The position numbers and the translations under genes were made by a program. 33,971 bases of DNA from assembly GCA_949297365.1 (NCBI GenBank), contig CASFSL010000035.1, positions 1-33,971 on the forward strand, read 5' to 3'. Origin of the DNA: an uncultured Bacteroidales bacterium (GTDB lineage Bacteria; Bacteroidota; Bacteroidia; Bacteroidales; UBA932). The notes under the pieces were generated by a model. It made no database searches and had not been told where the DNA came from. It saw only the letters and a program-made list of their open reading frames with translations. Of this stretch, positions 2,145 through 31,545 are shown one piece after another (the first letter of the stretch is position 1; each line of letters opens with the position of its first letter).

Positions 2145-2819
2145 ATGGAAAGAATCCCAAAGCCATTATTGATAATGTTGCCGGTGGGAGCGGCCATGCT
2201 GTCGCTCCCCTCGTGCAACGGTCTTTTCGAGGGCATATATGACGAGCCGCTGGCCGATACCGAGTTCGGGTTCACGAAGGTGGATCAGGCTAAGTCATCG
2301 GGTACGATATACATCGATGCCACCTCGTACACCAAGTGGACCTATATCGACTTCGAGACGTTCTCCATAGACACCACGGTGATTGCTGAGGACGGCACGG
2401 AGACCGGAGAAGTGATGGAGGGCTGGGATCTGGCCGTACACCGTTACGACACCAAGACCAACGGCGGTGCGGTTATCGAGACTGAGTTCACCTCGCTGGA
2501 TGAGTTCCTGGCATCGGGCAGGCTTCCGGACGGAGAGTATGTGGAGGATGTCTGGACAGAGGACAGGATAACGGTCGATATGTCGCAGATGATGGACGGG
2601 ATTATCCTCTACGCCCCGTCCTGGTATAATCCAGAACTGTCCAAATGGCTCAATGTGGACACCTCCACCATGCCGCCGGTGTATACGATGTCCGGCAAGG
2701 TGTACGTGCTGATGACGCAGGACGGCAAGGCGGCGGCCCTGCAACTGACCAACTATATGAATGACAGCAAGGTCAAGGGTTTTATGACTATTGATTATGT
2801 ATATCCGGTAGAATTCTGA
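2145..2819 (+). CDS. hmuY: HmuY-family haem-binding lipoprotein
   Basis: A 224-residue lipoprotein with lipobox LPSC (Cys24). The HmuY family is visible in SGTIYIDATSYTKWTYIDF (residues 52-70) and GWDLAVHRYDTKTNGG (93-108). HmuY is a haemophore that passes haem to the TonB receptor HmuR. Porphyromonas gingivalis HmuY uses two histidines as axial ligands. This protein has one histidine in total (H99, in the conserved structural AVHRYD segment), so a bis-His site is impossible. Methionines at 146, 149, 150, 176, 182, 190 and 205 are candidate ligands, as reported for several other Bacteroidota HmuY-like proteins. The start codon directly follows the upstream stop, and hmuR follows 2 nt after its stop. 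Confidence 0.9.
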   Translation: MERIPKPLLIMLPVGAAMLSLPSCNGLFEGIYDEPLADTEFGFTKVDQAKSSGTIYIDATSYTKWTYIDFETFSIDTTVIAEDGTETGEVMEGWDLAVHRYDTKTNGGAVIETEFTSLDEFLASGRLPDGEYVEDVWTEDRITVDMSQMMDGIILYAPSWYNPELSKWLNVDTSTMPPVYTMSGKVYVLMTQDGKAAALQLTNYMNDSKVKGFMTIDYVYPVEF

Positions 2820-2821
2820 CC

Positions 2822-4963
2822 ATGAACAGGATAATCTTTTTGCTCGTAATGCTTTCGCTGGCGGCTCAGAGTCTTTTCGCCTCCGCATCCGTAACCGTCA
2901 CCGGTGCGGTCAGGGACAGCAGGGGAGAGCCGCTTTCCGGTACAGTCGTGACAGTCGTCGGAAACGACAGACTGTATGCTGTGGCCGGAGATGACGGCAG
3001 ATATACTATAAGCGTACCGGACGGTGCGGCAGTGCTCAGGTTTCATCTTCTGGGCTATCTGACTCAGGACATACCGTTGGAGAAAGTGAAGGACAATCTC
3101 CTGAATGTGGTGCTGGAAGAGGATCTTATGAATCTGGAGACAGTAGTCGTCACCGGAACCAGGACACCGAGACTTCTTAAGGAGAGTCCTATCCTGACCA
3201 GGGTTATAACCGATCTGGATATTCAGAGGGTGGATGCCCTCAATATCGGTGACTTGCTGGAGTCGGAACTGCCCGGCATAGAGTTCTCGTATGCGATGGA
3301 CCAGCAGGTGACCCTGAATATGCAGGGCTTCGGAGGCAATTCGGTTCTCTTTCTGGTAGACGGGGAGCGCATAGCCGGTGAGACTTTGGACAACATAGAC
3401 TACAACCGCCTGAATCTGGATAATGTCCAGAGGGTCGAGATAGTCAAGGGTGCGGCCTCGTCCCTGTACGGCTCCAATGCCGTGGGCGGGGTGGTCAATC
3501 TCATCAGTGCCGGGGCGACCGAGCCCTGGTCTGTAAACGTCAACGCCCGATACGGAGCCCACAATGAGCAGCGGTACGGCGGCTCGGTAGGTTTCCAGGC
3601 CGGGAAACTGAACAGCATGACCAATGCCCAGTACACCAGCATCGATTCCTACTCCATGCCCTCGGAGGGCGATTACAGCACCTTCTATGGCGGCTACAAC
3701 TGGAGCGTCAAGGAACGTCTGCAGTATGAGCCTTTGGACGGTCTTAAATTCACAGCCCGAGCCGGCTACTTCTTCCGCGAGAGGGATCTGCAGAGCGATA
3801 CCAGGGACCGTTACCGCGATTTCAGCGGAGGTCTGAGAGGAGAATGGGATATCAACGACCGCAACCGTCTGGAACTCTCCTACGGCTTCGACCAGTACGA
3901 CAAGAGCGATTACCTGCTCTTCAATGAAACCGATGTCCGGGACTACAGCAACGTACAGCATGTGGTGCGCGGAGTCTATACTTACAGTCTGGGAAAGGAG
4001 GGACAGCACACCATGATACTCGGAGGCGACTATATGCGCGACTACCTGATGTCCTATCAGTTTGAAGGCAACGGTTACTATGTCCAGCATACGGCGGATG
4101 TCTTCGGCCAGATAGAGGCTAAGCTGAGCGAGAGGTGGCATCTTATCGGAGGTCTGCGCTACGACTTCTTCTCCCAGAAGCGGCTCAGCCATTTCTCTCC
4201 GAAGCTGAGTCTGATGTACAGTCTCAAGAACTGGTCGTTCAGAGGCTCTTACTCCGGCGGCTTCCGGGCCCCGACCCTCAAGGAGATGTACATGTCCTTC
4301 GACATGGCCAGCATCTTCATGATTTACGGCAACCCTGACCTTGAACCTGAGTCCAGCGAGAACCTCTCCGTCTCGGCCGAGTACAACTGGAAATACCTCT
4401 CCGCCTCTGTCTCAGGCTTCTACAACTTCGTGGACAACCGTATCACCACCGTCTGGAACGAAGAGCTCGGCGGCATGATGTACACCAACATGAGCCCCCT
4501 GCAGGTACGCGGAGTGGACGTGTCCGTCTCGACCCGCCTGCCATTCGGTCTCGGGGCCCGGCTGGCCTATACCTTTACCGACGAGGCCATACGCGCCGGC
4601 GAGCCCCTGCTCTCCCAGACCCGTCCCCATTCGGCTACAGCCCGCATCGAGTACGGCAAGTCCTGGAAGAACTACGGCTTCAACGTGGCCATCAGCGGCC
4701 GCATCCTCTCCTCCGTGACCACCGAGGTCTACACCTCCGCCACCAACTACGAAGACACCGAGACCCAAACCTACCCGGCCTACACGATATGGAAACTGAC
4801 CGTGTCGCAGGACATCTGGCGGGGCATACAGCTCAACGTGATAGTGGACAACCTCTTCAACTACAGGCCCGACTATTACTACAGCAGCACCCCGAGCACC
4901 GTCGGAACAACGGCCGCAGTCTCCCTTTCGATGAATATCGAGGAGTTTTTCAATAAAAAATAG
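2822..4963 (+). CDS. hmuR: TonB-dependent haem receptor HmuR
   Basis: A 713-residue outer-membrane receptor. A signal peptide (about 1-22) is followed by a carboxypeptidase-regulatory-like domain (about 24-98), a TonB-box-like segment (LETVVVTGTR, 105-114), the plug (about 118-230) and a 22-strand-type barrel ending in an aromatic-rich C-terminus. The haem-receptor boxes FRAP (481-484) and NPDL (504-507) are both present. In many haem receptors a His lies between these boxes. Here the 19 intervening residues contain no His but four Met, inside KEMYMSFDMASIFMIY. It lies 2 nt after hmuY and 18 nt before hmuS. The substrate is most likely haem or another porphyrin. Confidence 0.92.
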   Translation: MNRIIFLLVMLSLAAQSLFASASVTVTGAVRDSRGEPLSGTVVTVVGNDRLYAVAGDDGRYTISVPDGAAVLRFHLLGYLTQDIPLEKVKDNLLNVVLEEDLMNLETVVVTGTRTPRLLKESPILTRVITDLDIQRVDALNIGDLLESELPGIEFSYAMDQQVTLNMQGFGGNSVLFLVDGERIAGETLDNIDYNRLNLDNVQRVEIVKGAASSLYGSNAVGGVVNLISAGATEPWSVNVNARYGAHNEQRYGGSVGFQAGKLNSMTNAQYTSIDSYSMPSEGDYSTFYGGYNWSVKERLQYEPLDGLKFTARAGYFFRERDLQSDTRDRYRDFSGGLRGEWDINDRNRLELSYGFDQYDKSDYLLFNETDVRDYSNVQHVVRGVYTYSLGKEGQHTMILGGDYMRDYLMSYQFEGNGYYVQHTADVFGQIEAKLSERWHLIGGLRYDFFSQKRLSHFSPKLSLMYSLKNWSFRGSYSGGFRAPTLKEMYMSFDMASIFMIYGNPDLEPESSENLSVSAEYNWKYLSASVSGFYNFVDNRITTVWNEELGGMMYTNMSPLQVRGVDVSVSTRLPFGLGARLAYTFTDEAIRAGEPLLSQTRPHSATARIEYGKSWKNYGFNVAISGRILSSVTTEVYTSATNYEDTETQTYPAYTIWKLTVSQDIWRGIQLNVIVDNLFNYRPDYYYSSTPSTVGTTAAVSLSMNIEEFFNKK

Positions 4964-4981: not shown

Positions 4982-7900
4982 ATGATTCAAAAAACGGCAA
5001 AACTCATCACTCTCATAGTAGTATCCATCCTGGCAGTCCTCATCCTGTGGGGACTCTGGGCGTTTCTGGCTGCCCCTACGCGGGTGGCCTTCCTGAACTA
5101 CCAGGTCATCACCCTCGGTCAGATCTCCAAGGCCAATGACAGCCGCATGGTCCGCCTCTACGAGCTCACCCATGAGGATGCCTCCAAGGCCGGTCATTAC
5201 GACATCCTCCTGATCAACGGCATGGGCCTGAGAATCACCGAGGAACAGCGGGCGCAGATACAGAAGGCCGCCGACCGGGGCCTGCCCGTGCTCTCGACCA
5301 TGGTCACCAACCCGGCCAACGACATCAACACCGTGGACTCCACCCTCGCCCCGGAGCTTCAGGCCTACCTTTCCAACGGCGGTCCGGTGAACTATCGCAA
5401 CATGCTCGCCTTCATCCGCCGCAGGATCGACCGCAAGGTCATCGCCGCCCCTCAGCCCGCTCCCGCCGAGGAATACACGGTGGAGAACATCTACCACCCC
5501 TCGCCGGACGGCAGAGGAGGGGAGGAGGAGGGCTTCCGCTCCATCGCAACCTATAATCAGTGGCTCAGGGACAATGGCCTCTGGAAGGAAGGCTCTCCCC
5601 GCATCATCGTCACCGGCCAGATGGGCGACCCCACCGACCTGATAGCCTCCCTCGAGGCCACGGGCAATGTCGTCTATCCGATCCGCAGCACCATGCCCAT
5701 GCTCCGCACCGGGCAGCTCGACTCCATCGCCCCTTCAGCGGTGATCAACATGGCGCACGGCCGCTTAGGCGACGGGATGGTCAGGTTCCTGGAAAAATAC
5801 AACATCCCCCTCTTCTCTCCCCTGAATGTCAATTCCCTGGTCTCCGACTGGGAGGCCGATGAGATGGGCATGGCCGGGGGCTTCCTCTCCCAGAGCGTGG
5901 TGACTCCCGAGATAGACGGAGCCATCCGCCCTTACGTGCTCTTCGGACACTACGAGGATGAGGACGGGCTGCAGCGGCTCGAGGCCATTCCGGAGCGTCT
6001 GCAGGAGTTTACCGAGACGGTCAACCGCTATCTGGAACTCAGGCGCAAGCCCGAGAGTCAGAAGAAGATAGCCATATTCTACTACAAGGGCGCGGGACAG
6101 AATGCCCTGACGGCCGCCGGCATGGAGGTGGTGCCCTCGCTGTACAATTTTCTCAAGGCTCTGCAGTTGGCAGGGTACAATGTGGAGGGGCTGCCGTCCT
6201 CTCCCGAGGCCCTGGCTGCTCTGATTCAGAGCCGCGGCGCGGTCTTTGGCTCCTACGCCGAAGGGGCCGCCTCCCGCTTCATGGACGAGGGCGCTCCCGA
6301 GTGGGTGGACGCTCCGACATTTGCCCGCTGGGCTCAGGATGCCCTGCCTCAGAGGCTGCGCGAGGAGGTGGAGGCCCTGAACGGGGAGTTCCCAGGGCCC
6401 TATATGTCGAGAGACGGCCGTCTGGCCCTGGCCCGGATCGAACTGGGCAATGTGGTGCTGCTGCCGCAGCCCGCAGCCGGCGGCGGTCAGAACGACTTTC
6501 AGATGGTACACGGTACGCACGCCGCACCTCCGTACAATTATATAGCTGCTTACCTCTACGCCCGTTACGGCTTTGAAGCCGATGCTATGATTCACTTCGG
6601 AACCCACGGCAGCCTCGAGTTCACTCCGAAAAAGCAGGTGGCCCTGAGCCGGTACGACTGGCCGGACCGCCTGGTGGGTACCGTGCCGCATTTTTACCTG
6701 TACACCATTTCCAATGTCGGGGAGGGGGTGATGGCCAAGCGCCGCGCCTACGCTACGCTCCAGTCCTACCTCACCGCTCCTTTTATGGAGAGCAATGTAA
6801 GGGGGCTGTACCGCGACCTCTCGGAGGAGCTTTCGCACTATGAGGACGCTCTTTACGGGGAGAGGCCGGATGCTGCCCGCGCCGAGGACATAGCACTCAG
6901 AATCAAGGGGCTGACCATAGAGATGGGCATTGCCTCCGACCTCGGGCTGGATACCCTGGACAGGGGTGTGCCCTACACTGAGGAGGAGGTCCTGCGCATC
7001 GGGAATTTTGCCGAGGAACTGGCCTCCGAGAAGGTGACGGGCCGGCTCTACGTGATGGGGGAGCCCTATCTGCCGGCTCAGATCGAGTCTACGGTCTATG
7101 CCATGAGCACGGAGCCGGTGGCCTACGGTCTTTTAGGTATTGACAGGGCCAGGGGCAAGGACGTGGACGGGGTGGAGAAGCAGCTGTCAGTGTTCAACCG
7201 CAGGTATGTGGCCCCGGCAAAGAAGATAGTGGCCCGGCTGCTGGCCCAGGGCCGTCCGGCGGATGACCGGCAGCTCTGCTCGATAGCCGGAATCACTATG
7301 GAGGAACTTGCCCGCGCCAGGGAGGTGGCCGCTTCGCTCCAGACCCTGCCCGACATGATGTCTATGATGGCTCAGATGGCCGGTATGCAGCAGCTGAGGA
7401 AGGACTCAGTTGCCGGCCGGGGAATGAGCGAGATGATGTCGGCTGTGGGCCGGCAGATGATGGGTGGACGGGGAACTCAGCCGACGCAGCAGGAGAAGGA
7501 TTTTGCCCGGGCGGTGACTGAGATAGAACAGGCCGTGCTCAATGTGTACAACTACCGCAGGGCCCTGTTGGAAAGCCCTTCCGCCGAGTTGGGCAGTATG
7601 CTCAACGCCTTGGACGGCGGCTATACCTCGCCCTCGCCCGGAGGTGATCCCGTGGCCAATCCCAATACCCTGCCTACCGGTCGCAACCTCTTCGCCGTGA
7701 ACGCCGAGGCCACCCCGACCCGCAGTGCCTGGGAAAAGGGCGTAGCCCTGGCCGAGAATACCCTGCGGCTCTACCGTCAGCGGCACTGCGATTCCCTGCC
7801 CCGCAAGGTCAGCTACACCCTGTGGAGCAGCGAGTTCATCGAGACGGAGGGCGCGACGATAGCCCAGATATTCTACATGCTGGGAGTCGAGCCGGTCTAC

Positions 7901-9178
7901 GACAGCTTCGGCCGCGTGACCGATATCCGCCTGGTACCGTCGGAGAAGCTCGGCCGTCCGAGGATAGACGTGGTGGTGCAGACCAGCGGCCAGCTCCGGG
8001 ATATTGCGGCCTCGCGCCTCTTCCTGATAGACAGGGCTGTGCGCATGGCGGCGGAGGCTCAGGACGGGGAGTATGTCAACAATGTGGCCGAGGGTATCCG
8101 CGAGACCGAGCGGATACTCACCGAGAAGGGCGTGACTCCGGCCGATGCCCGCAGGATGTCCTCCTACAGGGTCTTCGGCGGGGTGAACGGCAACTACGGC
8201 ACCGGCATTCAGGGCATGGTGACCGCCTCCGACCGCTGGACCTCCAGTTCGGAGATAGCGCAGGTCTACATGAACAATATGGGAGCCTACTACGGCAGCG
8301 AGGAGGGCTGGGAGGAGTTCTCCCGGTATGCCTTCGAGGCGGCCCTCTCCCGCACTGACGCCGTGGTGCAGCCCCGTCAGAGCAATACCTGGGGTGCCCT
8401 CAGTCTCGACCACGTGTACGAGTTCATGGGCGGGCTCAATCTTTCCGTGAAGGAGGTGACGGGCAAGGACCCCGACGCCTATCTGAGCGACTATCGCAAC
8501 CGCAACCGCGTGAGGATGCAGGAACTCAAGGAGGCGATAGGGGTGGAGAGCCGCACGACGATATTCAATCCCTCGTACATTGCCGAGAAACTCAACGGCG
8601 GAGCGGGAGATGCGGCCGCCATAGCGGAAACTGTCACCAATACCTTCGGCTGGAACGTGATGAAGCCGGAGGCCGTCGATGACCGGGTCTGGGACGAGAT
8701 ATACGAGGTGTACGTGCAGGATAAATTTGACCTCGGAGTGCACGAGCATTTCAAGGAGGTCAATCCGGCGGCCCTCGAGGAGGTGACGGCCGTCATGCTT
8801 GAGTCGGTCCGCAAGGGTCTCTGGAACGCTACGCCGGAGCAGGTGGCCGATATCGCGGAGTTGCACACCGGCCTGATAGAGGAGTTCGCGCCCTCTTGCT
8901 CCGGCTTTGTCTGTGACAATCCGGCCCTGCAGGACTACATCGCCTCAGCCCTGCCCGAGGTCTCCGCCTCAGAGTACCGCGGGGCTATCCGGCAGATCCG
9001 GGAGGCATCGGTAAGCGACGCTTCGGACGGTATGGTGCTCCGCAAGGACAGGCTGCAGAGTGAGACGGAGAAGGAAACCACGCTGGTAAGCAACATAGCC
9101 GTGGCGGTGCTGATCATCGCCCTGTTCATCGGTGGCGGACTGCTGATACGCCGCCGCAGGAAGTCCAGCGGCATTTAA
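4982..9178 (+). CDS. hmuS: CobN/Mg-chelatase-like HmuS, membrane-anchored
   Basis: A 1398-residue member of the CobN/BchH large chelatase-subunit family. The family signature HFGTHGSLEFTPKKQVALS has H538 and H542; a second CobN motif, GGDPVANPNTLPTGRN, lies near residues 886-901, and CSGFVCDNP (C1306, C1311) is near the C-terminus. One helix at each end (about 7-31 and 1369-1388), with basic residues on the outer flanks, places both ends in the cytoplasm and the catalytic body in the periplasm. Ordinary cobaltochelatase CobN is soluble and works with CobS and CobT, which are absent. In Bacteroidota the hmu homologue has been reported to remove iron from haem, leaving protoporphyrin. The region at residues 792-827 is strikingly methionine-rich. 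Confidence 0.9.
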   Translation: MIQKTAKLITLIVVSILAVLILWGLWAFLAAPTRVAFLNYQVITLGQISKANDSRMVRLYELTHEDASKAGHYDILLINGMGLRITEEQRAQIQKAADRGLPVLSTMVTNPANDINTVDSTLAPELQAYLSNGGPVNYRNMLAFIRRRIDRKVIAAPQPAPAEEYTVENIYHPSPDGRGGEEEGFRSIATYNQWLRDNGLWKEGSPRIIVTGQMGDPTDLIASLEATGNVVYPIRSTMPMLRTGQLDSIAPSAVINMAHGRLGDGMVRFLEKYNIPLFSPLNVNSLVSDWEADEMGMAGGFLSQSVVTPEIDGAIRPYVLFGHYEDEDGLQRLEAIPERLQEFTETVNRYLELRRKPESQKKIAIFYYKGAGQNALTAAGMEVVPSLYNFLKALQLAGYNVEGLPSSPEALAALIQSRGAVFGSYAEGAASRFMDEGAPEWVDAPTFARWAQDALPQRLREEVEALNGEFPGPYMSRDGRLALARIELGNVVLLPQPAAGGGQNDFQMVHGTHAAPPYNYIAAYLYARYGFEADAMIHFGTHGSLEFTPKKQVALSRYDWPDRLVGTVPHFYLYTISNVGEGVMAKRRAYATLQSYLTAPFMESNVRGLYRDLSEELSHYEDALYGERPDAARAEDIALRIKGLTIEMGIASDLGLDTLDRGVPYTEEEVLRIGNFAEELASEKVTGRLYVMGEPYLPAQIESTVYAMSTEPVAYGLLGIDRARGKDVDGVEKQLSVFNRRYVAPAKKIVARLLAQGRPADDRQLCSIAGITMEELARAREVAASLQTLPDMMSMMAQMAGMQQLRKDSVAGRGMSEMMSAVGRQMMGGRGTQPTQQEKDFARAVTEIEQAVLNVYNYRRALLESPSAELGSMLNALDGGYTSPSPGGDPVANPNTLPTGRNLFAVNAEATPTRSAWEKGVALAENTLRLYRQRHCDSLPRKVSYTLWSSEFIETEGATIAQIFYMLGVEPVYDSFGRVTDIRLVPSEKLGRPRIDVVVQTSGQLRDIAASRLFLIDRAVRMAAEAQDGEYVNNVAEGIRETERILTEKGVTPADARRMSSYRVFGGVNGNYGTGIQGMVTASDRWTSSSEIAQVYMNNMGAYYGSEEGWEEFSRYAFEAALSRTDAVVQPRQSNTWGALSLDHVYEFMGGLNLSVKEVTGKDPDAYLSDYRNRNRVRMQELKEAIGVESRTTIFNPSYIAEKLNGGAGDAAAIAETVTNTFGWNVMKPEAVDDRVWDEIYEVYVQDKFDLGVHEHFKEVNPAALEEVTAVMLESVRKGLWNATPEQVADIAELHTGLIEEFAPSCSGFVCDNPALQDYIASALPEVSASEYRGAIRQIREASVSDASDGMVLRKDRLQSETEKETTLVSNIAVAVLIIALFIGGGLLIRRRRKSSGI

Positions 9179-9195
9179 ATCATCCGAATGCGCCT

Positions 9196-9909
9196 ATGTA
9201 CAGTCTAGTCGTTATACTCATGGTGCTGGTCTGCTTCAACTTCGTGCTGAAGCAGTCCTGGCACAAATGGTGGTCGGTCCTGGCCCATGCCGCCGCGGCC
9301 GCCCTCTTCACCGGTCTGATGTGGCCGGTGGCAGTGCGTCAGTCCCGCTCCCAGATCGAGACCTGGCTGGCCAACCCGGACCTGATGCTCGACACCTCGG
9401 TGGTTATCACCCTCGAGGTTATCCTCCAGATATCCTTCTGCCTGCTGTCGGTGCATCTGCTCAGCTCCGGTAAACTGAAGTCCTCCACCGTCTGGGGCTA
9501 CCGCATCCTGCGCTGGTTCCCGGGGGTGCTGATATTCGGGGTGCTGTTCAGTTTCCTGGTCTATCTGATATTTGCCTTCCCGGGTGTATCCTTCCCCTTA
9601 GTGGCCTGGAGTGCCGCCGCCGTGGTCTTCGTGGTGATAGCCGGAGGGGCCTGGCTCATGCGCCTGCTCTTTCCCGACAAGGAGAGCCGCCTGGAGATGT
9701 TCTTCCTGACCAATGCCCTGACAGGGATAGTGGCGGTGATAGCCACCGTCAACGGACAGACGGCCGTGGCCGGGGTGAGCGATGTGGACTGGAGGGCTCT
9801 TGCCGGGGTCTTAGGGCTTATCGTCGCAGGGGTTCTGGCCGGTTCCTTCGTGAGGACGGCCCGGCCTTTCCGGAGATTTTTAAAAATGAACTATAATTTA
9901 AAAAAGTAA
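9196..9909 (+). CDS. hmuT: HmuT-like polytopic membrane protein
   Basis: A 237-residue integral membrane protein with about six or seven hydrophobic helices (near 2-18, 30-48, 67-90, 108-130, 134-156, 168-186 and 197-219) and a basic C-terminal tail. I see no transporter or enzyme motif. It is named by position: in hmuYRSTUV loci the gene between hmuS and the ExbB-like hmuU encodes such a protein. It may hold HmuS and the HmuUV unit together or carry porphyrin or iron across the membrane; this is inference. It starts 17 nt after hmuS and is followed by an A-rich leader for hmuU. Confidence 0.75.
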   Translation: MYSLVVILMVLVCFNFVLKQSWHKWWSVLAHAAAAALFTGLMWPVAVRQSRSQIETWLANPDLMLDTSVVITLEVILQISFCLLSVHLLSSGKLKSSTVWGYRILRWFPGVLIFGVLFSFLVYLIFAFPGVSFPLVAWSAAAVVFVVIAGGAWLMRLLFPDKESRLEMFFLTNALTGIVAVIATVNGQTAVAGVSDVDWRALAGVLGLIVAGVLAGSFVRTARPFRRFLKMNYNLKK

Positions 9910-9925
9910 TAAAATATAAAAAAGT

Positions 9926-10561
9926 ATGAACTACATATCTGATGTTCTCTTCTGGATTTCCAACGGACTGCTCGTACCGGTAGTGGTCCTGCTGATCCTG
10001 TTTTTCCTTCGGTCGCTGCTGCTGATTGGCAATTTCTTCGGACAGTACCTGCAGATACGCAAGGTGGACCGCCTCTTCATGACCAAGGTCGAGGCTCTGA
10101 CTCCGGCTACCGTCGGGGAGCTGAGGGCTTCCCTGCCTGCCAATACTAAGTCCCCTCTGCTGAACTGCCTGGCCGGTATGCTGGACACCACCAGGGACCG
10201 GGCGCACCGCCAGCTGCTGCTCTCCGACTACGAGATAGCCGCTGACAAGGACCTGGGCACCTCCAAGACCCTCTCGAAGATGGGCCCTATGCTCGGTCTG
10301 ATGGGAACCCTGATTCCTATGGGTCCGGCTCTCGTGGGCCTGTCCACCGGCGATATCGGCTCGATGGCTTACAACATGCAGGTGGCCTTTGCCACGACCG
10401 TCGTGGGCCTGTTCTCGGCCGCGATAGGCTTCATCACCCAGCAGGTCAAGCAGCGCTGGTACACCCGCGACCTGAACCGCTTAGAGTTCGTGTCGGAGGT
10501 GCTGGACGGATGCGCAGGTGTGCAGGAAGTGGAAACCAGGACAGGGGAGGAAGTGCGATGA
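9926..10561 (+). CDS. hmuU: MotA/TolQ/ExbB proton-channel protein HmuU
   Basis: A 211-residue protein with the ExbB/TolQ layout: one N-terminal helix (about 8-34), a cytoplasmic loop, then two helices (about 116-140 and 150-172). The second helix carries PMLGLMGTLIPMGPALVGL and the third carries AFATTVVGLFSAAIGF, with T157 and T158 where ExbB/TolQ proteins keep channel threonines. It overlaps hmuV by 4 nt, as expected for a stoichiometric pair. The probable role is to form a proton-conducting pentamer-like stator with HmuV that energises a partner, most likely HmuS given the operon. Energising HmuR through TonB is the alternative. Confidence 0.88.
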   Translation: MNYISDVLFWISNGLLVPVVVLLILFFLRSLLLIGNFFGQYLQIRKVDRLFMTKVEALTPATVGELRASLPANTKSPLLNCLAGMLDTTRDRAHRQLLLSDYEIAADKDLGTSKTLSKMGPMLGLMGTLIPMGPALVGLSTGDIGSMAYNMQVAFATTVVGLFSAAIGFITQQVKQRWYTRDLNRLEFVSEVLDGCAGVQEVETRTGEEVR

Positions 10562-10884
10562 AGAGAAGAAGACTGCTGGGAGGGGACGAGGAGAACGACC
10601 CGATGAGCGTGGTGGGAAACCTCTTCGACGTGGCCATGGTCTTCGCCGTGGCCCTTATGGTCGCCCTCGTGACCCGCTACAACATGACCGAGATGCTTTC
10701 GCCCGAGGACTTTACGATGGTCAAGAATCCCGGCAAGGAGGACATGGAGATCATCGTCAAGCAGGGACAGAACATCGACCGCTACACCCCTTCCGATGAC
10801 CAGTCCAAGTCCGGTCAGAGGGGTAAGCGCGTGGGCATAGCCTACGAGCTGGAGAACGGGGAGATTATCTATGTCCCTGAATAG
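10558..10884 (+). CDS. hmuV: DUF2149 protein HmuV, ExbD-like
   Basis: A 108-residue protein with a short basic cytoplasmic start, one membrane helix (about 18-38) and a periplasmic domain, the topology of ExbD and TolR. The helix contains NLFDVAMVFAVALMV, which lines up with the ExbD/TolR helix so that D24 falls on the essential proton-carrying Asp. DUF2149 proteins regularly follow an ExbB-like gene in hmu loci. The ATG at 10558 overlaps the hmuU stop region (ATGA). The last 20 nt overlap the convergent bioC gene, leaving no room for a terminator between them. The ExbD analogy is my inference from topology and that Asp. Confidence 0.85.
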   Translation: MKRRRLLGGDEENDPMSVVGNLFDVAMVFAVALMVALVTRYNMTEMLSPEDFTMVKNPGKEDMEIIVKQGQNIDRYTPSDDQSKSGQRGKRVGIAYELENGEIIYVPE

Positions 10885-11686
10885 GATGCCGGGCGATGAG
10901 GTAGACAGGGTGGTAAGTGAGTGTGACGTTGCCGTCCGGTGTGCCGAAGCGGAGCAGGTATTCGTCGGAGAAGCGGGCCAGTCGGGCGGGTGTCCAGGAG
11001 GTGCGGGTGATGCCGTTTACTCCTGTATGTTTGAGATGCCGTATTACCTCTATGGCTGAGGGAAAATCCAGCACGATGCTTTCTTCTTCTGCAGTGACAG
11101 TCTCCAGACCGGCCGAGGACAGCATCTGCCGTAGCCGCTCCAGTGGCGGATAGTCCAGTCCGCTACTTGTAATGCTCCTGATCTCGTGGAGGTTGTAGGG
11201 GCCGAAGGTGCTTAGGGCCAATATACCGCCCGGAGCGAGCAGGTCATGGCAGCGTCTGATGAACCGTTCGGGATCTTCGAACCATTGCATCACGGAGCAC
11301 GAAGCGATGAGGCTCTGTTCCCTTGGCAGATCACAGTGCTCGGCGTCTCCACAGACAAATCGTATCACGCATTCCCGGGGACGGGAAGATACAGAGGAGT
11401 CAGGTACCGGTCCGCTGTCGTCAGTGGCCATGATATCTGTCAGGGTTTCGCGGACTTCGGGGCAGATGTCGTTGAGGATCATCCGGGCAGGGTGGAAATG
11501 CTGCATGAAGAGGCGGGTAAATGTGCCGGTGCCGCAACCGATCTCCAGTACGTCGGCCGGTCTGTCGGACAACAGTGGGCGGAGCATGGCGCACATCCGC
11601 CCGGCTATCATCTGCTGGGCCCGGGCATATTCGGCATAGCTGCGCACCGAGCGGGCAAAGCGGCGGCGTATCAGGGTCTTGTCCAT
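10865..11686 (-). CDS. bioC: malonyl-ACP O-methyltransferase BioC
   Basis: A 273-residue SAM-dependent methyltransferase. Motif I is VLEIGCGTGTF (residues 47-57), with the class I Rossmann order continuing through CGDAEHCDLP and the GGILALSTFG strand. BioC methylates malonyl-ACP so that it can be elongated by fatty-acid synthesis as a disguised primer toward pimeloyl-ACP. It is last in the bio operon, overlaps bioG by 16 nt, and pairs with BioG, which removes the methyl group at the end. The 3' end runs 20 nt into hmuV on the other strand. Confidence 0.92.
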   Translation of the reverse strand: MDKTLIRRRFARSVRSYAEYARAQQMIAGRMCAMLRPLLSDRPADVLEIGCGTGTFTRLFMQHFHPARMILNDICPEVRETLTDIMATDDSGPVPDSSVSSRPRECVIRFVCGDAEHCDLPREQSLIASCSVMQWFEDPERFIRRCHDLLAPGGILALSTFGPYNLHEIRSITSSGLDYPPLERLRQMLSSAGLETVTAEEESIVLDFPSAIEVIRHLKHTGVNGITRTSWTPARLARFSDEYLLRFGTPDGNVTLTYHPVYLIARHPIQGHR

Positions 11687-12351
11687 AGCTCATCCTCATA
11701 CAGCAGCCGCCTGAACAGGCCGGCGTCGTAGTGTGCTGCATCTGTGTCTGTTATCGGTACGTTCAATTCTTCCCAGGCGTGGTGCTGACCGGCGGGCGGG
11801 AATATCATGTCCCGGTCTCCTACGACAGCTTTGTCCCATCTTAAAGGACTTGAAACTGTGTTCCTGGCCCTGTCACCTATGGCGGCAAGCTCATCGCGCA
11901 GTTCCTCCGCACTTCGGTTGAGACCGCAGGCGAGCAGACTTTCAAGAGTGTCGGACGAGCCGCACATCCTCCGGCGGAATTTGGCCAGAGTCCGCTCGGA
12001 AAGGCCGTTGAGGGTACCGTCAAAGATGGCCGTGGGGATACCTCTGCTATCATCTATGGGGAATGGTGTTCCGTTCACGGCCAGCCTCGGACCGTTTACC
12101 ATGCCGGCCTCGCCCAGTGCTTTGCCTGCGGCCCACACACCCATGGACCAGGCCAGCAGGCTTATCCTGCAGTATCCGCGCAGCAGGTCCGGGTCCAGAG
12201 TCATGTCCCGGTAGTCCCACAGCATCAGTATGTTCCTGCCCGGGCCCGTATCTGAGTCAGAGTAGAACATGCCGGGCTCGCTTCCCCAGCCGGAGAAGAA
12301 CAGCAGCAGCTCGGAACTGCCTGAGTGATGTCTTAGAAAGGTGTGTCTCAT
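11671..12351 (-). CDS. bioG: pimeloyl-ACP methyl ester esterase BioG
   Basis: A 226-residue alpha/beta hydrolase of the BioG (DUF452) type. The nucleophile is S69 in LLAWSMGVWAA, and the oxyanion-region FFSGWGSEPG is near residues 18-27. A later VGDRDMIFP and a final AHYDAG supply the Asp and His of the triad. BioG cleaves pimeloyl-ACP methyl ester, ending the BioC-initiated elongation cycle; it replaces E. coli BioH. It overlaps bioF by 4 nt upstream and bioC by 16 nt downstream. Confidence 0.92.
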   Translation of the reverse strand: MRHTFLRHHSGSSELLLFFSGWGSEPGMFYSDSDTGPGRNILMLWDYRDMTLDPDLLRGYCRISLLAWSMGVWAAGKALGEAGMVNGPRLAVNGTPFPIDDSRGIPTAIFDGTLNGLSERTLAKFRRRMCGSSDTLESLLACGLNRSAEELRDELAAIGDRARNTVSSPLRWDKAVVGDRDMIFPPAGQHHAWEELNVPITDTDAAHYDAGLFRRLLYEDELWTRP

Positions 12352-13508
12352 ATACTGTCGCAGAGCCGTTCTATGTCACTGTCTGTGAGACCGGCGGTAA
12401 GGGAGAAACGCAGTCGGGAAGTGCCTTCGGGTACTGTCGGCGGCCTTATGGGCAGGACGTAGAAGCCTTTGCGCCGCATATCCTCGGCTTTGAGGACGGC
12501 TTCTGTCGCCGTGCCTGTGATAAGCGGTACTATATGGCTTTCGGATGGAGTTCCGAATCCTTTTGCCTGTAGGGCCTGTCTGAATTGTGTAGAGTGCCGT
12601 TGCAGCCTTTCACGCTGTCCCTTGAAGCCGGAGAGCCGTTCCATGACGAACAGAGTCCAGGCCATGTTGAGCGGAGGCAGGGCAGTGGTGAAGATAAGGG
12701 TACGCATCCGGTTGACAAGATACTCCTTGATTACCCGGTCACAGATGACGAATGCTCCTACTGAGGCCAGGGCCTTGCCGAATGTGCCGCACAGCAGGTC
12801 TATGTCCGCGATGCAGCCGGTCTCCTCGGCCAGTCCCAGGCCGCGCTCTCCGCGTACCCCCACGGCGTGAGCCTCGTCTACATAGAGCATTATATTGTCC
12901 CGGCGGCGTTTTAATTTTGTCAGACGCTGCAGCGGGGCCGTGTCTCCGTCCATGCTGAATATGCTTTCGGTGACTATGATTATCCTGTCGCAGCCGGAGT
13001 ACTCCTTTTCTATCAGCGTTTCCAGCTGGCCGTAGTCCTGATGCCGATAGCGTATGCAGCGGGCTCCGCTCAGGCGGATGCCGTCGATGAGACTGGCGTG
13101 TACCAGTTTGTCAGCCAGGATGAGCGTGTCTTTGCCGCACAGGGCCGGGAGGATGCCTGCGTTCATGTGATAGCCGCTGCTGAGCACCAGTGCGTCTTCC
13201 CGTCCATAAAGGGAGGCCAGAGTATCCTCAAGGGCATTGAACACCCCGAAATTGCCGGTCAGCAGGCGGGATGAGGACGAGGACAGCGGCAGCTGTTTTC
13301 CGGTGTTCCTGAGCCATTCACGGAACTCCTTCATCAGAGCGGTGTCGGAGGCCAGCCCGAGATAGTCGTTGGAGGACAGATTGAGCATCCGCTGTCCTCC
13401 GCAGAGGATCCAGCGGCCCTCATGCAGGCCGGACGGCAATGTCCGCAGATTGCCGGAGGCTTTCAGAGCATCCAGTTCCTCCGCATATTTCTCATATATT
13501 GCTCTCAT
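12348..13508 (-). CDS. bioF: 8-amino-7-oxononanoate synthase
   Basis: A 386-residue PLP enzyme of the alpha-oxoamine synthase family. The Schiff-base lysine is K245 in [14 protein letters not shown]211 and H214 in [10 protein letters not shown] hold the cofactor, and SSNDYLGLA is near residues 46-54. It joins pimeloyl-ACP with alanine, releasing CO2 and ACP. The length is normal (about 385). It overlaps bioA and bioG by 4 nt each, so translation is probably coupled. The close glycine-using relative Kbl is less likely given the complete biotin neighbourhood. Confidence 0.95.
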
Positions 13509-14800
13509 GCCGGTATCTCTTTTACTATTTTCAGCATCCTGGAGGTCAGTGCGGACAACTCTCCGGGTTCAATGATGAAGGGCGGCATGGTGTATACCAG
13601 CCTTCCGAAGGGCCTGAGCCAGATGCCTTCCTCTACGAAGCGCCTCTGCATCCAGGCCATGTCCACCGGCTGCTTCATTTCAAGTACTCCTATGGCTCCG
13701 AGCACCCTCACGTCCGCTACCGACGGTATCCGGCGGGCGGGAGCCAGTTCTTCCCTCAGCTGCGCCTCTATCCTGCGCACCTTCTCCTTCCAGCCGCTCT
13801 CTAGCAGCAGGCGGGTGGATGCGACGGCGACGGAGCAGGCCAGCGGATTGCCCATGAAGGTGGGTCCGTGCATGAATACCCTCGGGTCGTGCGAGGAGAT
13901 GGTGTCCGCCACAAGGTCATTGGCCAGCACCGCCGAGAAAGTCATGTAACCTCCGGTGAGGGCCTTGCCGATGCACATGATGTCCGGCTCCACCCCGGCG
14001 TGCTCCCAGGCGAAGAACTTCCCGGTGCGGCCGAATCCGGTGGCTATCTCGTCGAATATCAGCAGCAGCCCATGCTTCCGGCAGAGGGCGGCCGCCTCCC
14101 TCAGGTACTGGGGATGGTAGAACCGCATTCCCCCGGCTCCCTGCACTATCGGTTCGAGGATAAGGGCCGCTATGCCCTTTCCGTGCTGCTCTATGATCTC
14201 CCGCAGCGGGTCTATGTCGTGCGGGTCCCAGCCTCCGTCGAAACGGCTGTGGGGTGAGGGTGCGAAGTACCTCACCGGCAGGGCTGAGCCGAAGAGGGAG
14301 TGCATCCCGGTGACAGGGTCGCAGACCGACATGGCGTTCCAGGTGTCGCCGTGGTAGCCGGTGCGTATGGTCACGAAATTGGTCCTGTCGGGATGTCCGG
14401 CGGCCACTTGGTACTGCACTGCCATCTTCATGGCCACCTCCACGGCCACCGAACCGCTGTCGGCGTAGAAGATGTGGCTCATTGACGGAGGAGCGATGCT
14501 CAGCAGCAGCTTGCCCAGTTCTATGGCCGGCTCATGGGTCAGTCCTCCGAACATGACGTGGGCCATGCTGTCCAGCTGCCGGCGGACGGCCTCGTTGAGC
14601 ACCGGATGGTTGTAGCCGTGTACGGCACACCACCATGAGGACATGCCCTCGATAAGCTCCGTGCCGTCCTCAAGGGTTATCCGGCAGCCCTGTGCGCTGC
14701 GCACCTTGTAGGTGGGCAGTGGGTTGATGGTGGAGGTATAGGGATGCCACAGATGATCGCGGTCAAATATGTCGAAATTGGGATTTTTCTCAGAGTTCAT
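13505..14800 (-). CDS. bioA: adenosylmethionine-8-amino-7-oxononanoate transaminase
   Basis: A 431-residue class III aminotransferase. Visible features are DHLWHPYTS (14-22), [13 protein letters not shown] (54-66), [12 protein letters not shown]250 in [15 protein letters not shown] and the PLP lysine K279 in [11 protein letters not shown]. The enzyme makes 7,8-diaminononanoate using SAM as amino donor. In some Bacteroidota and other bacteria BioA is fused to BioD; the length here shows an unfused BioA. It overlaps bioB by 11 nt and bioF by 4 nt. Confidence 0.96.
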
Positions 14801-15746
14801 ATCCGGCGGTTTTTATCAGTTCTTTGTCCTCGGCCACCTTTGAGCCGATGGTGGTCAGCAGGTCTCCGGCTATGGCCGAGTTGATGCCGGTGCGCATGGC
14901 CTCCAGCACTGTCTGGCGGGAAAGTCTGGCCCGTCCTCCGGCGAAGCGCAGGTATGCTCTCGGATGAATGAACCGGAATATGGCCACCGTGCGCAGCACC
15001 TCATCCTCGGAGATGAGCGGTGTGTGCTCCAGCGGTGTTCCGGGGATGGGTGACAGTATGTTCAGGGGGATGGACTGTACTCGTAACTCTTTGAGAGTAA
15101 ATGCGAACTCGACCCTCTGAGCCACAGTCTCGCCCATACCGATGATGCCTCCGGAGCAGATATCCATTCCTACGCGGCGGGCGGCTTCAAGAGTCTCGAT
15201 TTTCTGCTGCTGGGTGTGAGTCGAGCACAGTGAGGGAAAATAGGACGGAGCGGTCTCCAGGTTGCAGTGGTATCTGGTTACTCCCGCCTCGTAGAGTTTG
15301 CGCAGGCTGTCCTCGGAAAGCAGTCCCAGGGACGCGCAGACACGGATGCCGCTGTTGGCACGTATATGGCGTACACGGGCGCATACCTCGTCCACTTCCC
15401 GGTCGGAAAGTCTGCGGCCGCTGGTCACCAGTGAGAAGCGGCCTATGCCGGAGGCTTCGTTGACCCGGGCGTGGCGCAGGCATTCTTCCTCTGACACCAG
15501 AGGGTAGATTTCCGAACCTGTATGATAGTGGGCGGACTGGGCGCACCACTTGCAGTCTTCGGGGCAGCGGCCCGACTTGGCATTGATGATCGAGCACAGG
15601 TCGAACCGCCTGGGTGCGCACTGCGCTGTAATCTCCTGTGCAACATCCAGCAGCGGCCTCAGTTCCGCCTTCTCAGCCAGCCACAACGCTTCTTCCGGGC
15701 ATATCTCCTGTCCGGACTGTATCTTTTCTTTCAGACTTTCCAGCAT
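14790..15746 (-). CDS. bioB: biotin synthase
   Basis: A 318-residue radical-SAM enzyme inserting sulfur into dethiobiotin. The [4Fe-4S] motif is C61-x3-C65-x2-C68 in [19 protein letters not shown]. Residues expected to hold the [2Fe-2S] cluster are in [17 protein letters not shown] and the Arg of [10 protein letters not shown]. It is the first bio gene and starts 11 nt after the purN stop, so it probably depends on the purN promoter. I see no BirA-type operator in that short gap. Confidence 0.96.
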
Positions 15747-27574: not shown

Positions 27575-27898
27575 ATGAACAGGAAATTACATATCAAGAA
27601 AGGCGATATGGTCTATGTGAACGCCGGCAATGACAAGGGCAAGACCGGAAAGGTTCTCGAGATCATCACCAAGAAGGACCGCGCCATCGTGGAGGGTGTC
27701 AACATGGTGAGCAAGCACACCAAGCCCAATGCAAAGCATCCTCAGGGCGGTATTATCAAACAGGAAGCAGGAATCCATATTTCCAACCTTCAGGTAGTGG
27801 ATCCCGCCAAGGGAGGCCCCACCAGGATCGGCCGCCGTATGGGCGAGAACGGGAAATTGGTCCGTTATGCTAAAAAATCAGGAGAGGAGATCAAGTAA
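27575..27898 (+). CDS. rplX: 50S ribosomal protein L24
   Basis: A 107-residue uL24 with the KOW motif at the N-terminus ([20 protein letters not shown]) and [12 protein letters not shown] in the middle. It initiates large-subunit assembly. Its stop overlaps the rplE start by one base (TAATG), indicating coupling. Confidence 0.98.
27881..27889 (+). promoter_or_regulatory. Shine-Dalgarno-like site, rplE
   Basis: GGAGAGGAG inside the end of rplX, 8 nt before the rplE start. Confidence 0.6.
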
Positions 27899-28500
27899 TG
27901 GCAAAGAAAAAAGTAGAAGAGACCAAGCAGGAGCAGGTAAGCTTGGCAGGATACGTTCCCAATCTTCAGAAGAAATACAAAGAGGAGATAGTGGCCAGGC
28001 TCCAGAAGGAGTTCGGCTTCGCTACTGTAATGCAGGTGCCCAAGCTCGTCAAGATAACCCTCAACCAGGGTATCGGTGACGCTACAGGTGACAAGAAGCT
28101 CGTAGAGGTCGCTCAGCAGGAGCTCACCGCCATCGCAGGACAGAAGGCCGTGACCACATATTCAAGGAAGGATATCTCCAACTTCAAGCTCCGTCGCGGA
28201 CAGGCTATCGGAGTGAAGGTTACTCTCCGTGGCGCACGTATGTACGAGTTCCTTGAGAGGCTCATCGCCGTGTCACTTCCCCGTATCCGTGACTTCAACG
28301 GTATCAACGAGAAGTTTGACGGCCGCGGCAACTATACTCTCGGTATCAAGGAGCAGATCATCTTCCCCGAGATCGACATCGACAAGATCACCAAGATCTT
28401 CGGCCTCGAGATTACCTTTGTAACCTCCACTGAGAAGGATGAGGAGGCTTATGCTCTTCTCCGTGAGTTCGGACTGCCTTTTAAGAACAAAAAATCGTAA
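27898..28500 (+). CDS. rplE: 50S ribosomal protein L5
   Basis: A 200-residue uL5 that binds 5S rRNA in the central protuberance. Recognisable blocks are [51 protein letters not shown] and FPEIDIDKI. It has about 15 extra charged residues ([14 protein letters not shown]) before the usual start. An internal start is not needed, because a Shine-Dalgarno-like site precedes the first ATG. The 5S gene it serves is not in this window. Confidence 0.98.
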
Positions 28501-28509
28501 ATAGAAGAT

Positions 28510-28779
28510 ATGGCAAAAGAATCAATGAAAGCCCGCGAGGTCAAAAGGGCAAAGCTGTGCGCGAAATACGCAGAGAAACGTAAAGCATTAAAGGAAGCCG
28601 GCGACTGGGCCGCTCTCGACAGACTCCCCAAGAATTCGAGCCCCTGCCGTCAGCACAACCGCTGCTCTATTACAGGACGTCCCAAGGGATATATGCGTGT
28701 TTTCGGCATCAGCCGTATTCAGTTCCGCGAGATGGCCAGCAAGGGTTTAATACCTGGAGTAAGAAAGGCATCATGGTAG
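28510..28779 (+). CDS. rpsN: 30S ribosomal protein S14
   Basis: An 89-residue uS14 of the zinc-free type: no paired CxxC motifs, although single cysteines remain at 17, 46 and 52. [20 protein letters not shown] is the conserved core. It belongs in the head of the small subunit. An unusual 214-bp gap follows before rpsH. Confidence 0.97.
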
Positions 28780-28782
28780 ACG

Positions 28783-28903
28783 GCTGCACTTTCTTCGAAC
28801 GATTTTCTGCGTTTTGCTCACTCGGCGATATCCTCATTTACGACAGTAAACTCCGGTGTCTCCTCGCTCGCAGGCCTTGAAAATCGCCCGAATAAAGCAC
28901 AGC
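28783..28903. repeat. inverted-repeat (MITE-like) element in the spc operon
   Basis: The two ends, 28783-28807 and 28879-28903, are inverted copies with 20 of 25 positions matching. Inside, TGCG/CGCA, GATATC/GGTGTC and TTTAC/GTAAA (loop GACA) pair as well, so the whole element can fold into one long imperfect hairpin. No clear target-site duplication is visible beside it. On the minus strand a reading frame stays open across most of it. It could be a small non-autonomous transposon, a dispersed palindromic repeat or a structured mRNA element; one copy cannot decide. Confidence 0.65.
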
Positions 28904-28953
28904 AGTTGTAAAAAAGAAAATTAACAAAATTATTTATAAACCATTGGATATCG

Positions 28954-28969
28954 GGCGCTGAAAAGCGTC
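28954..28969 (+). promoter_or_regulatory. GAAA-tetraloop hairpin before rpsH
   Basis: A 6-bp stem (28954-28959 with 28964-28969, one G-T pair) closed by a GAAA tetraloop, 24 nt before the rpsH start. The bases between it and the ATG are almost all A and C, so the start is left unstructured. A role in protein binding or mRNA stability is possible but unproven. Confidence 0.45.
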
Positions 28970-28993
28970 GAACCACAAAAACAAAACAAACAA

Positions 28994-29389
28994 ATGACTG
29001 ATCCAATAGCAGATTACCTGACGAGAGTCAGGAACGCATATCTCGCAAAGCACAAGATCGTCGAGATCCCTGCATCGAAGATGAAGATGGAGATTACCCG
29101 TATTCTCCACGAGAAAGGTTACATCCTCAGCTACAAGCTGGTGGAAGGCACTCCCTACAACACTATCAAGATAGCCCTCAAGTATCATCCTGAGACAAAG
29201 CAGGCCGCTGTCAAGAAGATCATGAGAGTGTCAACCCCCGGTCTGAGACGCTATGTAGGAGTCGAGGACATGCCCCGCGTGCTCAACGGCATGGGTATCG
29301 CCATCCTCTCCACATCGAAGGGTGTCATCACCGACAAGGAGGCCAAGGACATGAATGTCGGCGGCGAGGTCCTCTGTTATGTTTATTAA
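28994..29389 (+). CDS. rpsH: 30S ribosomal protein S8
   Basis: A 131-residue uS8, with MTDPIADYLTRVRNAYLAKH at the start and the ILSTSKGVITDKEAKDMNVG region at the end. S8 binds the central domain of 16S rRNA and in E. coli represses its own spc operon. Here it is separated from rpsN by the inverted-repeat element and a further 90-nt leader. No Shine-Dalgarno is present. Confidence 0.98.
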   Translation: MTDPIADYLTRVRNAYLAKHKIVEIPASKMKMEITRILHEKGYILSYKLVEGTPYNTIKIALKYHPETKQAAVKKIMRVSTPGLRRYVGVEDMPRVLNGMGIAILSTSKGVITDKEAKDMNVGGEVLCYVY

Positions 29390-29408
29390 TATTTAAAACG
29401 AAGTAATA

Positions 29409-29969
29409 ATGTCAAGAATTGGAAAATTGCCTGTACACCTGCCGCAGGGCGTTACCGCAACAGTGGGCGCCGACAATGTGGTAATGGTTAAAGGACCGCT
29501 CGGACAACTGAGTCAGAAAGTTGATCCTGACATCAAAGTATCCGTTGAAGGGAATATTATTACGGTCAGCCGTCCTACGGACCAGCCCCGTCACCGTTCC
29601 CTGCACGGACTCTACCGCGCACTCATTCACAATATGGTGACTGGAGTATCCACCGGCTTCACCATCAAGCAGGAGCTTATCGGTGTGGGTTACCGCGTGG
29701 AGGTCAAGGGACAGATCCTTGAGCTCGCCCTCGGATATTCACACGATATACACTTCATGCTTCCCTCGGAGATCAAGGCCGAGGCAGAGCCTGTGAAGAA
29801 GGGACAGAACCCTGTTCTTGTTCTCAAGAGCTGCGACAAACAGCTGCTCGGCCAGGTAGCCGCCAAGATCCGCTCTATGCGTGCTCCCGAGCCGTATAAG
29901 GGTAAAGGTATTAAGTTTGTGGGCGAACAGCTTCGCCGCAAGGCCGGTAAGTCAGCCGGAGCTAAATAA
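29409..29969 (+). CDS. rplF: 50S ribosomal protein L6
   Basis: A 186-residue uL6 made of two related domains, with MSRIGKLPVHLPQGV at the start, GVSTGFTIKQELIGVGYRV in the middle and RAPEPYKGKGIKFVGEQLRR, the 23S-contacting signature, near the C-terminus. It is 19 nt after rpsH and 15 nt before rplR. Confidence 0.98.
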   Translation: MSRIGKLPVHLPQGVTATVGADNVVMVKGPLGQLSQKVDPDIKVSVEGNIITVSRPTDQPRHRSLHGLYRALIHNMVTGVSTGFTIKQELIGVGYRVEVKGQILELALGYSHDIHFMLPSEIKAEAEPVKKGQNPVLVLKSCDKQLLGQVAAKIRSMRAPEPYKGKGIKFVGEQLRRKAGKSAGAK

Positions 29970-29970
29970 T

Positions 29971-29976
29971 AGGAGG
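29971..29976 (+). promoter_or_regulatory. Shine-Dalgarno site, rplR
   Basis: AGGAGG with 8 nt to the rplR ATG. Confidence 0.75.
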
Positions 29977-29984
29977 ATAAGAAT

Positions 29985-30347
29985 ATGGCAATGACTAAGA
30001 TAGAAAGAAGACAGAGAATACGCTACCGTATCCGCAAGGTCGTCAACGGTACTCCCGAGAGACCCAGGATGTCCGTATTCAGAAGCAACAAGCAGATATA
30101 TGTTCAGGTTATCGATGACACCAAGGGCGTGACCCTGGTATCGGCCGGCTCTACTGACAAGTCTCTCGCAGAGGCAACCAAGGGCAAGACCGCCACTGAG
30201 GTTGCGGCTATGGTCGGAAAGCTCATCGCTGAACGTGCGACAGAAAAAGGTATCTCCACCGTCGCTTTCGACCGCGGAGGATATCTCTATCACGGAAGAG
30301 TTAAAAGTTTGGCAGACGCAGCCCGCGAGGGCGGTCTTAAATTCTAA
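29985..30347 (+). CDS. rplR: 50S ribosomal protein L18
   Basis: A 120-residue uL18 with the basic N-terminal tail, [19 protein letters not shown] and [20 protein letters not shown]. It binds 5S rRNA together with L5. It has a strong Shine-Dalgarno and is followed 6 nt later by rpsE. Confidence 0.98.
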
Positions 30348-30353
30348 GAGACT

Positions 30354-30872: not shown

Positions 30873-30877
30873 GGAGG
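30871..30877 (+). promoter_or_regulatory. Shine-Dalgarno site, rpmD
   Basis: AAGGAGG with 7 nt to the rpmD ATG; it overlaps the last bases of rpsE. Confidence 0.75.
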
Positions 30878-30884
30878 ACGAACG

Positions 30885-31067: not shown

Positions 31068-31083
31068 ATCAAGCTAAAAAGAG

Positions 31084-31530: not shown

Positions 31531-31545
31531 AAACAATAGCGGCCG

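Follow-up and report, generated by a model that had tools for sequence, protein, structure and literature searches.

Class I chelatases such as ChlH and CobN are soluble proteins driven by AAA+ subunits that use ATP (ChlI/D and CobS/T, respectively), while ExbBD, TolQR and MotAB represent a different kind of engine, of which the ion-driven motor ZorAB is another example. The closest described relative of the system considered here is HmuS of Bacteroides thetaiotaomicron (PDB 9d26 and 9p4s; PMC12583661). We analyzed a stretch of 33,971 nucleotides from an uncultured Bacteroidales bacterium (contig CASFSL010000035.1, assembly GCA_949297365.1), referred to below as the window, which holds a complete hmuYRSTUV operon, with hmuY, hmuR, hmuS, hmuT, hmuU and hmuV consecutive on the plus strand, as are all features listed below unless noted otherwise. 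The initial annotation of this DNA had placed hmuS, hmuT, hmuU and hmuV at 4982-10884, and all four are indeed found there. The window shares with B. thetaiotaomicron the HmuS family, the operon order, the site-1 and site-2 residues, a methionine-rich insertion and both membrane anchors. However, while the paper on that enzyme assigns HmuU and HmuV to the outer-membrane receptor HmuR and regards the role of HmuT as unclear (PMC12583661), we assign the pair to HmuS. Specifically, we give a probability of slightly above one half (about 0.54) to HmuU and HmuV being a proton-conducting motor of the MotA/TolQ/ExbB kind that is dedicated to HmuS and not to an outer-membrane receptor, where the contact, the proton flow and the driven step are what we infer. 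In the literature searched, as far as it was accessible, there was no HmuU or HmuV mutant and no assignment of the pair to HmuS.

The hmuU gene (9926..10561) encodes a MotA/TolQ/ExbB-type channel subunit (PF01618, E 1e-10, 41.8 bits against a cut-off of 22.9), and its profile matches in the PDB are MotA and TolQ, with a best E of 0.00097. The hmuV gene (10558..10884) encodes a DUF2149 protein (PF09919, E 7e-34) with a single helix and a small beta domain; its start was set at the ATG at 10558 by comparison with homologues, the mechanical open reading frame (ORF) start being 10510. An AlphaFold2 (AF2) model of HmuV (mean pLDDT 70.5) has its sole helix at residues 15-47, with D24 (10627..10629) inside it, as had been expected from the sequence. 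The lack of conservation of D24 in DUF2149 had been named beforehand as a possible refutation, and the residue proved to be near-invariant: among the 105 DUF2149 sequences with a letter at this site, the window included, it is Asp in 104 and Glu in one, from Runella. For HmuU, the ExbB/TolQ-type assignment of the initial annotation stands, although its choice of threonines stands only in part. When the alignment to TolQ is read by eye, T158 falls on the threonine of the third transmembrane helix (TM3), T157 falls on neither of the two TolQ threonines, and T128 (10307..10309), which had been missed, falls on that of the second helix (TM2). Among 102 HmuU-profile sequences, T128 is Thr in all 102, while T157 and T158 (10394..10399) are Thr in 86 and 94, respectively. 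The corresponding positions in Escherichia coli are presumably 145 and 178 in TolQ and 148 and 181 in ExbB. HmuUV thus shares with ExbBD, TolQR and MotAB the family of HmuU, the TM2 and TM3 threonines and a one-helix partner with a membrane carboxylate, but differs from them in that the partner is a DUF2149 protein with a small C-terminal beta domain and in that the proposed client is of the chelatase type. A PDB sequence match of HmuV to the designed protein 8qag was taken as chance, as no stretch passed alone.

The gene company of the pair was considered at several scales. An initial phylum-wide draw of 198 genomes contained DUF2149 in the window's genome only, and was replaced by a six-frame search of 198 genomes of the window's order. 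There, DUF2149 was detected in 18 genomes (17 over the cut-off) and CobN in 16; all 16 genomes with PF02514 carry PF09919, and CobN was found in each of the 16 whose DUF2149 match is strong, the two CobN-less genomes presenting weak or partial DUF2149 matches. Seventeen of these loci were fetched, of which 15 hold a recognizable HmuV and two a weak or partial one. HmuU and CobN accompany HmuV in all 15, with CobN upstream, and HmuT was recognized between CobN and the pair in 14 of them. One CobN-less genome (locus L035 of G330) contains a 128-residue HmuU-like ORF with a partial DUF2149, possibly a decaying hmu remnant. Outside the order, a tblastn search of PLSDB plasmids with HmuV yielded 11 records, of which eight loci were examined (H1, H2 and H6 were left out); U, V and CobN stand together in seven of the eight, while at the Paracoccus locus V is partial and CobN is absent from the surroundings. 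The surroundings of these loci are diverse, with B12 genes in Trichlorobacter lovleyi, nikR near the Azospirillum locus and hydrogenase maturation genes in Runella.

A wider search of genomes, with an alignment of DUF2149 as the query, confirmed at least 555 places, of which the best 80, chosen by V alone and belonging to many phyla, are the basis of the counts that follow. U adjoins V in 77 of these, and in the other three the contig ends at or near V. A CobN within 6 kb of V was found in 73, downstream in 60 and upstream in 13, while U and V stay together; 55 of the 73 nearby CobNs are complete, and 50 of the 55 carry a C-terminal anchor. For the seven loci with no nearby CobN, five genomes have CobN elsewhere and in two metagenome-assembled genomes (MAGs) none was found. 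In one locus, L128 of Desulfospira joergensenii, a single stretch contains two copies each of S and V. Nine of the 80 loci are labelled as archaeal, and the relatives of the trio range from bacteria of the gut to methanogens. In the archaeal loci, U stands beside V in eight, the contig ending at V in the ninth. CobN is no more than 6 kb away in five, and a CobN match is present in all nine genomes; the three complete CobNs beside archaeal UV (L114, L119 and L121) have both anchors. A comparable set, known here by description from papers, is the Zur-regulated operon PA1922-PA1925 of Pseudomonas aeruginosa, where genes for a TonB receptor, a CobN-like protein, an ExbD-annotated protein and a DUF2149 protein, the last named as such in PMC9431628, likewise stand together and are induced by zinc starvation as part of the Zur response (PMC4542158, PMC9431628, PMC11761036, PMC8456098, PMC13083405). 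Judging from such gene contexts, the putative HmuUV-CobN relatives are tied not to haem alone but also to B12, nickel and zinc.

CobN proteins fall into two kinds when their partners and anchors are compared. For this comparison we used complete ORFs of at least 1000 residues, after near-copies and ORFs cut at a locus end had been dropped, and called anchors by a hydropathy cut of 1.6. It should be noted that the AAA+ profile was home-made from seven plasmid proteins and may miss divergent partners; with it, none of the 77 CobNs with U and V within 6 kb had an AAA+ partner detected within that distance, in contrast to the ATP-driven ChlHID and CobNST, while one was detected for 14 of the 31 CobNs lacking the complete pair nearby. 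A C-terminal hydrophobic segment is present in 69 of the 77 and an N-terminal one in 61, while only three of the 31 have a C-terminal segment. These three are L067, where V is present and U is off the contig end, and the archaeal L201 and L202, where UV is found elsewhere. With the hydropathy cut lowered to 1.2, a C-terminal anchor is called in 75 of 79 V-linked CobNs and still in none of the 28 CobNs of two UV-less groups, which are in this respect unlike most of the UV-linked CobNs. Fourteen complete CobNs have neither UV nor a detected AAA+ gene, and the two kinds of CobN co-occur in several genomes. In the best 80 loci, the profile found no AAA+ chelatase partner up to 8 kb from V. The absence of AAA+ partners that had been noted for the present locus holds for the whole window, where neither the home-made profile nor PF01078 found a chelatase partner. 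In the rest of the window's genome, PF01078 gave one strong match, to YifB, besides two short ones (E 1.6e-5 and 1.9e-4), the ChlD/CobT and CobS families not being included in this search.

In a tree of 109 CobNs, built with a quick method and rooted at the midpoint, one branch of 82 rows (SH-aLRT 100) unites 79 CobNs with V, the two archaeal ones with UV elsewhere and a single exception. The association of CobN with HmuUV is therefore ancient and retained and is largely one event, with four label changes in the tree. The exception (L183:7038-10880) is a second CobN in a genome of the window's order; it lacks both the pair and a C-terminal anchor, and a TonB receptor adjoins it. As the CobN rows share ancestry, Fisher tests on these tallies were not counted as evidence.

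HmuS itself (4982..9178) is a CobN-type protein over its whole length (PF02514, E 8e-291), and its best PDB match is the HmuS haem dechelatase 9d26 with 1778 bits, followed by ChlH with 392. Hydropathy places an N-terminal anchor at residues 1-38 (4982..5095) and a C-terminal one at residues 1364-1392 (9071..9157). Lys or Arg residues are found at the extreme N-terminus and directly after the C-terminal segment, and because positive residues thus lie at the outer ends of both anchors, the body of HmuS should be in the periplasm according to the positive-inside rule. This agrees with the initial annotation, where a CobN-like body anchored at both ends had been proposed. Alignment to 9d26 equates M81 (5222..5224) and H259 (5756..5758) with the site-1 haem ligands Met-79 and His-254 of the B. 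thetaiotaomicron enzyme, H542 (6605..6607) with the catalytic His-538 and E581 (6722..6724) with Glu-577 of site 2. H1144 (8411..8413), outside the printed alignment, was assigned to His-1209 by sequence pattern, and an insertion rich in methionine, as described for B. thetaiotaomicron HmuS (PMC12583661), was read from the sequence at approximately 7346..7486. The family and the catalytic His and Glu are shared with the class I chelatases ChlHID and CobNST. To see how far these residues extend, we compared an hmu group of 17 rows (the window, the complete CobNs of its order, L048, L123 and L129) with 62 other UV-linked CobNs. H542 is His in 17 of 17 and in 56 of 62, and E581 is Glu in 17 of 17 and in 59 of 62. 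On the other hand, H259 is His in 16 of the 17 and Phe or Leu in 44 of the 62, and H1144 is His in all 17 and Asp in 52 of the 62. M81 (Met in 13 of 17 and in 36 of 62) is, as aligned, neither universal nor specific. These tallies indicate that most of the haem-specific ligands belong to HmuS, while the catalytic core and the motor are common to the relatives, which probably act on chelates besides haem.

In the mechanism that we propose, protons would pass between D24 of HmuV and T128 and T158 of HmuU, and either the membrane helices of HmuS or the small domain of HmuV would pass the resulting movement on to the anchored, periplasmic enzyme. The stroke may then open and reset HmuS between cycles, in the loading of substrate or the release of protoporphyrin IX (PPIX) or Fe2+, while demetallation itself would run on a reductant and on the His and Glu sites of HmuS. 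HmuUV would hence take the place that the AAA+ subunits ChlI/D and CobS/T hold for the soluble ChlH and CobN. The gradient is not needed for the chemical step, as purified HmuS works with neither U, V nor a gradient, and since the purified enzyme halts after one or two turnovers (PMC12583661), resetting or product release is likelier to be driven than the chemistry. The published stimulation of HmuS by inner membrane of Porphyromonas gingivalis, and much less by E. coli membrane, also speaks for such a motor (PMC13227078). The same source reports haem loss in vitro for the P. gingivalis and Bacteroides fragilis proteins and mentions a possible influence of HmuT, U and V on the activity of HmuS, although elsewhere in it HmuTUV is drawn as a haem transporter. 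The proton motor in place of AAA+ partners, as suggested by the initial annotation, is supported by the company of UV and CobN across phyla and cargoes, by the lack of detected AAA+ genes and by the archaeal pairs, but not in its strict form, as purified HmuS converts haem with no gradient.

Several observations speak against a motor dedicated to HmuS and need to be considered when its probability is judged. Purified B. thetaiotaomicron HmuS, stripped of its anchors and with no T, U or V present, forms PPIX from haem in the presence of NADH and needs no ATP, and in lysates the membrane fraction gave about 80% PPIX and the soluble fraction 36%, for which the authors suspect solubilised HmuS (PMC12583661). 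B. fragilis lacking both of its CobN-like proteins grows poorly on haem iron, while PPIX is still released (PMC6460266); as to B. thetaiotaomicron, the hmuS mutants are transposon insertions, with possible effects on downstream genes (PMC12583661). In a survey that counted 2,170 complete hmu operons, 981 species, many of them Bacteroidetes, had R, T, U and V with no S detected at a 30% identity threshold, and 337 had T, U and V alone (PMC10100974). Split hmuS annotation or the identity threshold could be behind the difference from our order sample; nonetheless, because of these sets we lowered our confidence in the motor and in the broader proposal given below and raised that in the transporter and HmuR alternatives discussed below. 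In our own data, CobN was unmatched in two of 19 genomes searched, both MAGs with UV, and a TonB receptor lies within 8 kb of V in 51 of the best 80 loci. HmuV matches only PF09919 and not PF02472, its hhalign probabilities against ExbD are 0.7% and 0.4%, and a fold search of the PDB with its AF2 model gave nothing at E <= 0.001. Homology of HmuV to ExbD is thus not supported at the profile level, though strong similarity is claimed in PMC10100974. Finally, the association of CobN with the pair goes back for the most part to a single ancient event, so that the loci counted cannot be treated as independent trials.

A broader proposal, to which we would give somewhat less than even odds, is that the CobN/ChlH superfamily has two engines, with AAA+ ATPases for the cytosolic members on one side and, on the other, an ancient anchored, extracytoplasmic branch of archaea and bacteria in which a proton-driven HmuUV would serve to work metals out of or into haem, corrinoid, nickel or zinc chelates. 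If true, this would provide a function for DUF2149, explain how a periplasmic enzyme that lacks ATP is cycled, extend the short list of known ExbB-type motor clients by a chelatase and offer a first testable role for the many archaeal and bacterial CobN-like proteins encoded away from any B12 pathway. It is also relevant to the way in which gut commensals obtain iron from dietary haem, and in three Bacteroidota the hmu operon is induced by iron limitation (PMC10434189).

The strongest rival, unlikely in our estimate, is that HmuSTUV is a proton-driven inner-membrane transporter, in which UV together with T would move haem, porphyrin or freed metal in or out, with HmuS as a periplasmic front end that binds and demetallates. 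A crossing of the inner membrane by haem through HmuTUV is proposed in PMC13227078, the published TUV sets with no detected S (PMC10100974) fit this possibility, and the nickel, B12 and zinc contexts (for zinc, PMC4542158) suggest metal supply. A polytopic protein, either HmuT, DUF2162 or one of the urease-accessory type, often comes with the set: DUF2162 lies within 8 kb of V in 46 of the best 80 loci and in eight of the nine archaeal ones. In 16 sequences of this membrane protein, which is found in many archaeal and Desulfobacterota loci (L043, L119, L121 and others), a PCPxC motif and a His are invariant, a pattern that might suit a metal permease; in the window, a home-made DUF2162 profile found no match. 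HmuT of the window (9196..9909) is a polytopic membrane protein that belongs to no Pfam family, with an all-helical AF2 model (mean pLDDT 81.8) for which the PDB offers no fold match at E <= 0.001. What speaks against transport is that T is variable, with identities of 21-87% (local matches) among loci of the window's order as compared to 61-88% for HmuV, and that homology between HmuT and DUF2162 is not clear (hhalign probability 36%). Moreover, the Azospirillum locus and the Comamonadaceae plasmid, for which the gene table is incomplete, have no T-like gene listed in the stretch from cobN to U and V. Also counting against it, we know of no solute transport by ExbB-type motors themselves.

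Considerably less probable is one published assignment, according to which HmuU and HmuV are an ExbB/ExbD pair that energizes the outer-membrane receptor HmuR, with TonB supplied from elsewhere. This is stated in PMC12583661 and in PMC10100974, the latter with a claim of strong similarity, in sequence and structure, of HmuV to ExbD, and it agrees with the ExbB family of HmuU and with the receptors near V counted above. In the window, hmuR (2822..4963) encodes an outer-membrane receptor (PF00593 and PF07715) whose best NCBIfam match is the haem receptor TIGR01785, under its cut-off, so that a possible client is present, while home-made ExbD and TonB profiles found no match in the window. Nonetheless, the window's genome has two other ExbB-ExbD sets, the T. 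lovleyi U-V-CobN locus stands beside a separate, full exbB-exbD-tonB set, the Comamonadaceae plasmid carries U-V-cobN with no TonB receptor listed within 10 kb, and, as described, HmuV has no detectable homology to ExbD. In the archaeal genomes, the pair is found with CobN, while a TonB-receptor plug was matched in none of the nine and ExbD in none of the nine, several of these genomes being MAGs of unknown completeness. As archaeal HmuV and CobN occur with no match to a TonB receptor or to ExbD, the conserved task of the pair is unlikely to be the energizing of an outer-membrane receptor.

Least probable of all is a passive role of HmuUV, as a scaffold or proton wire that would keep HmuS at the membrane and feed protons to the pyrrole nitrogens with no mechanical coupling. 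In its favour, the carboxylate and threonines are conserved and two protons are used per demetallation (PMC12583661). Against it, motors built on the conserved MotA/TolQ/ExbB core have moving parts, and the periplasm can give protons with no channel.

As for the remaining genes of the window, the operon opens with hmuY (2145..2819), which encodes a haemophore-like protein (PF14064, E 4e-37). Upstream, within 1-1068, the contig opens inside a 16S rRNA gene, of which it has the 3' end; two tRNAs come next and protein genes after them, with a HEPN and nucleotidyltransferase gene pair at 512-1068. No 23S match was found in the window despite the 16S end at the contig start, which reflects either unlinked rRNA genes or an assembly join. 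On the other side of the operon, 3' of hmuV, the minus strand carries a biotin-synthesis-like cluster at 10868-15746, in which a methyltransferase and a class-III aminotransferase were matched and for which the biotin label was given by eye. Near the far end of the contig, at 27898-32862, lies a ribosomal-protein cluster (L5 and L6) together with SecY.

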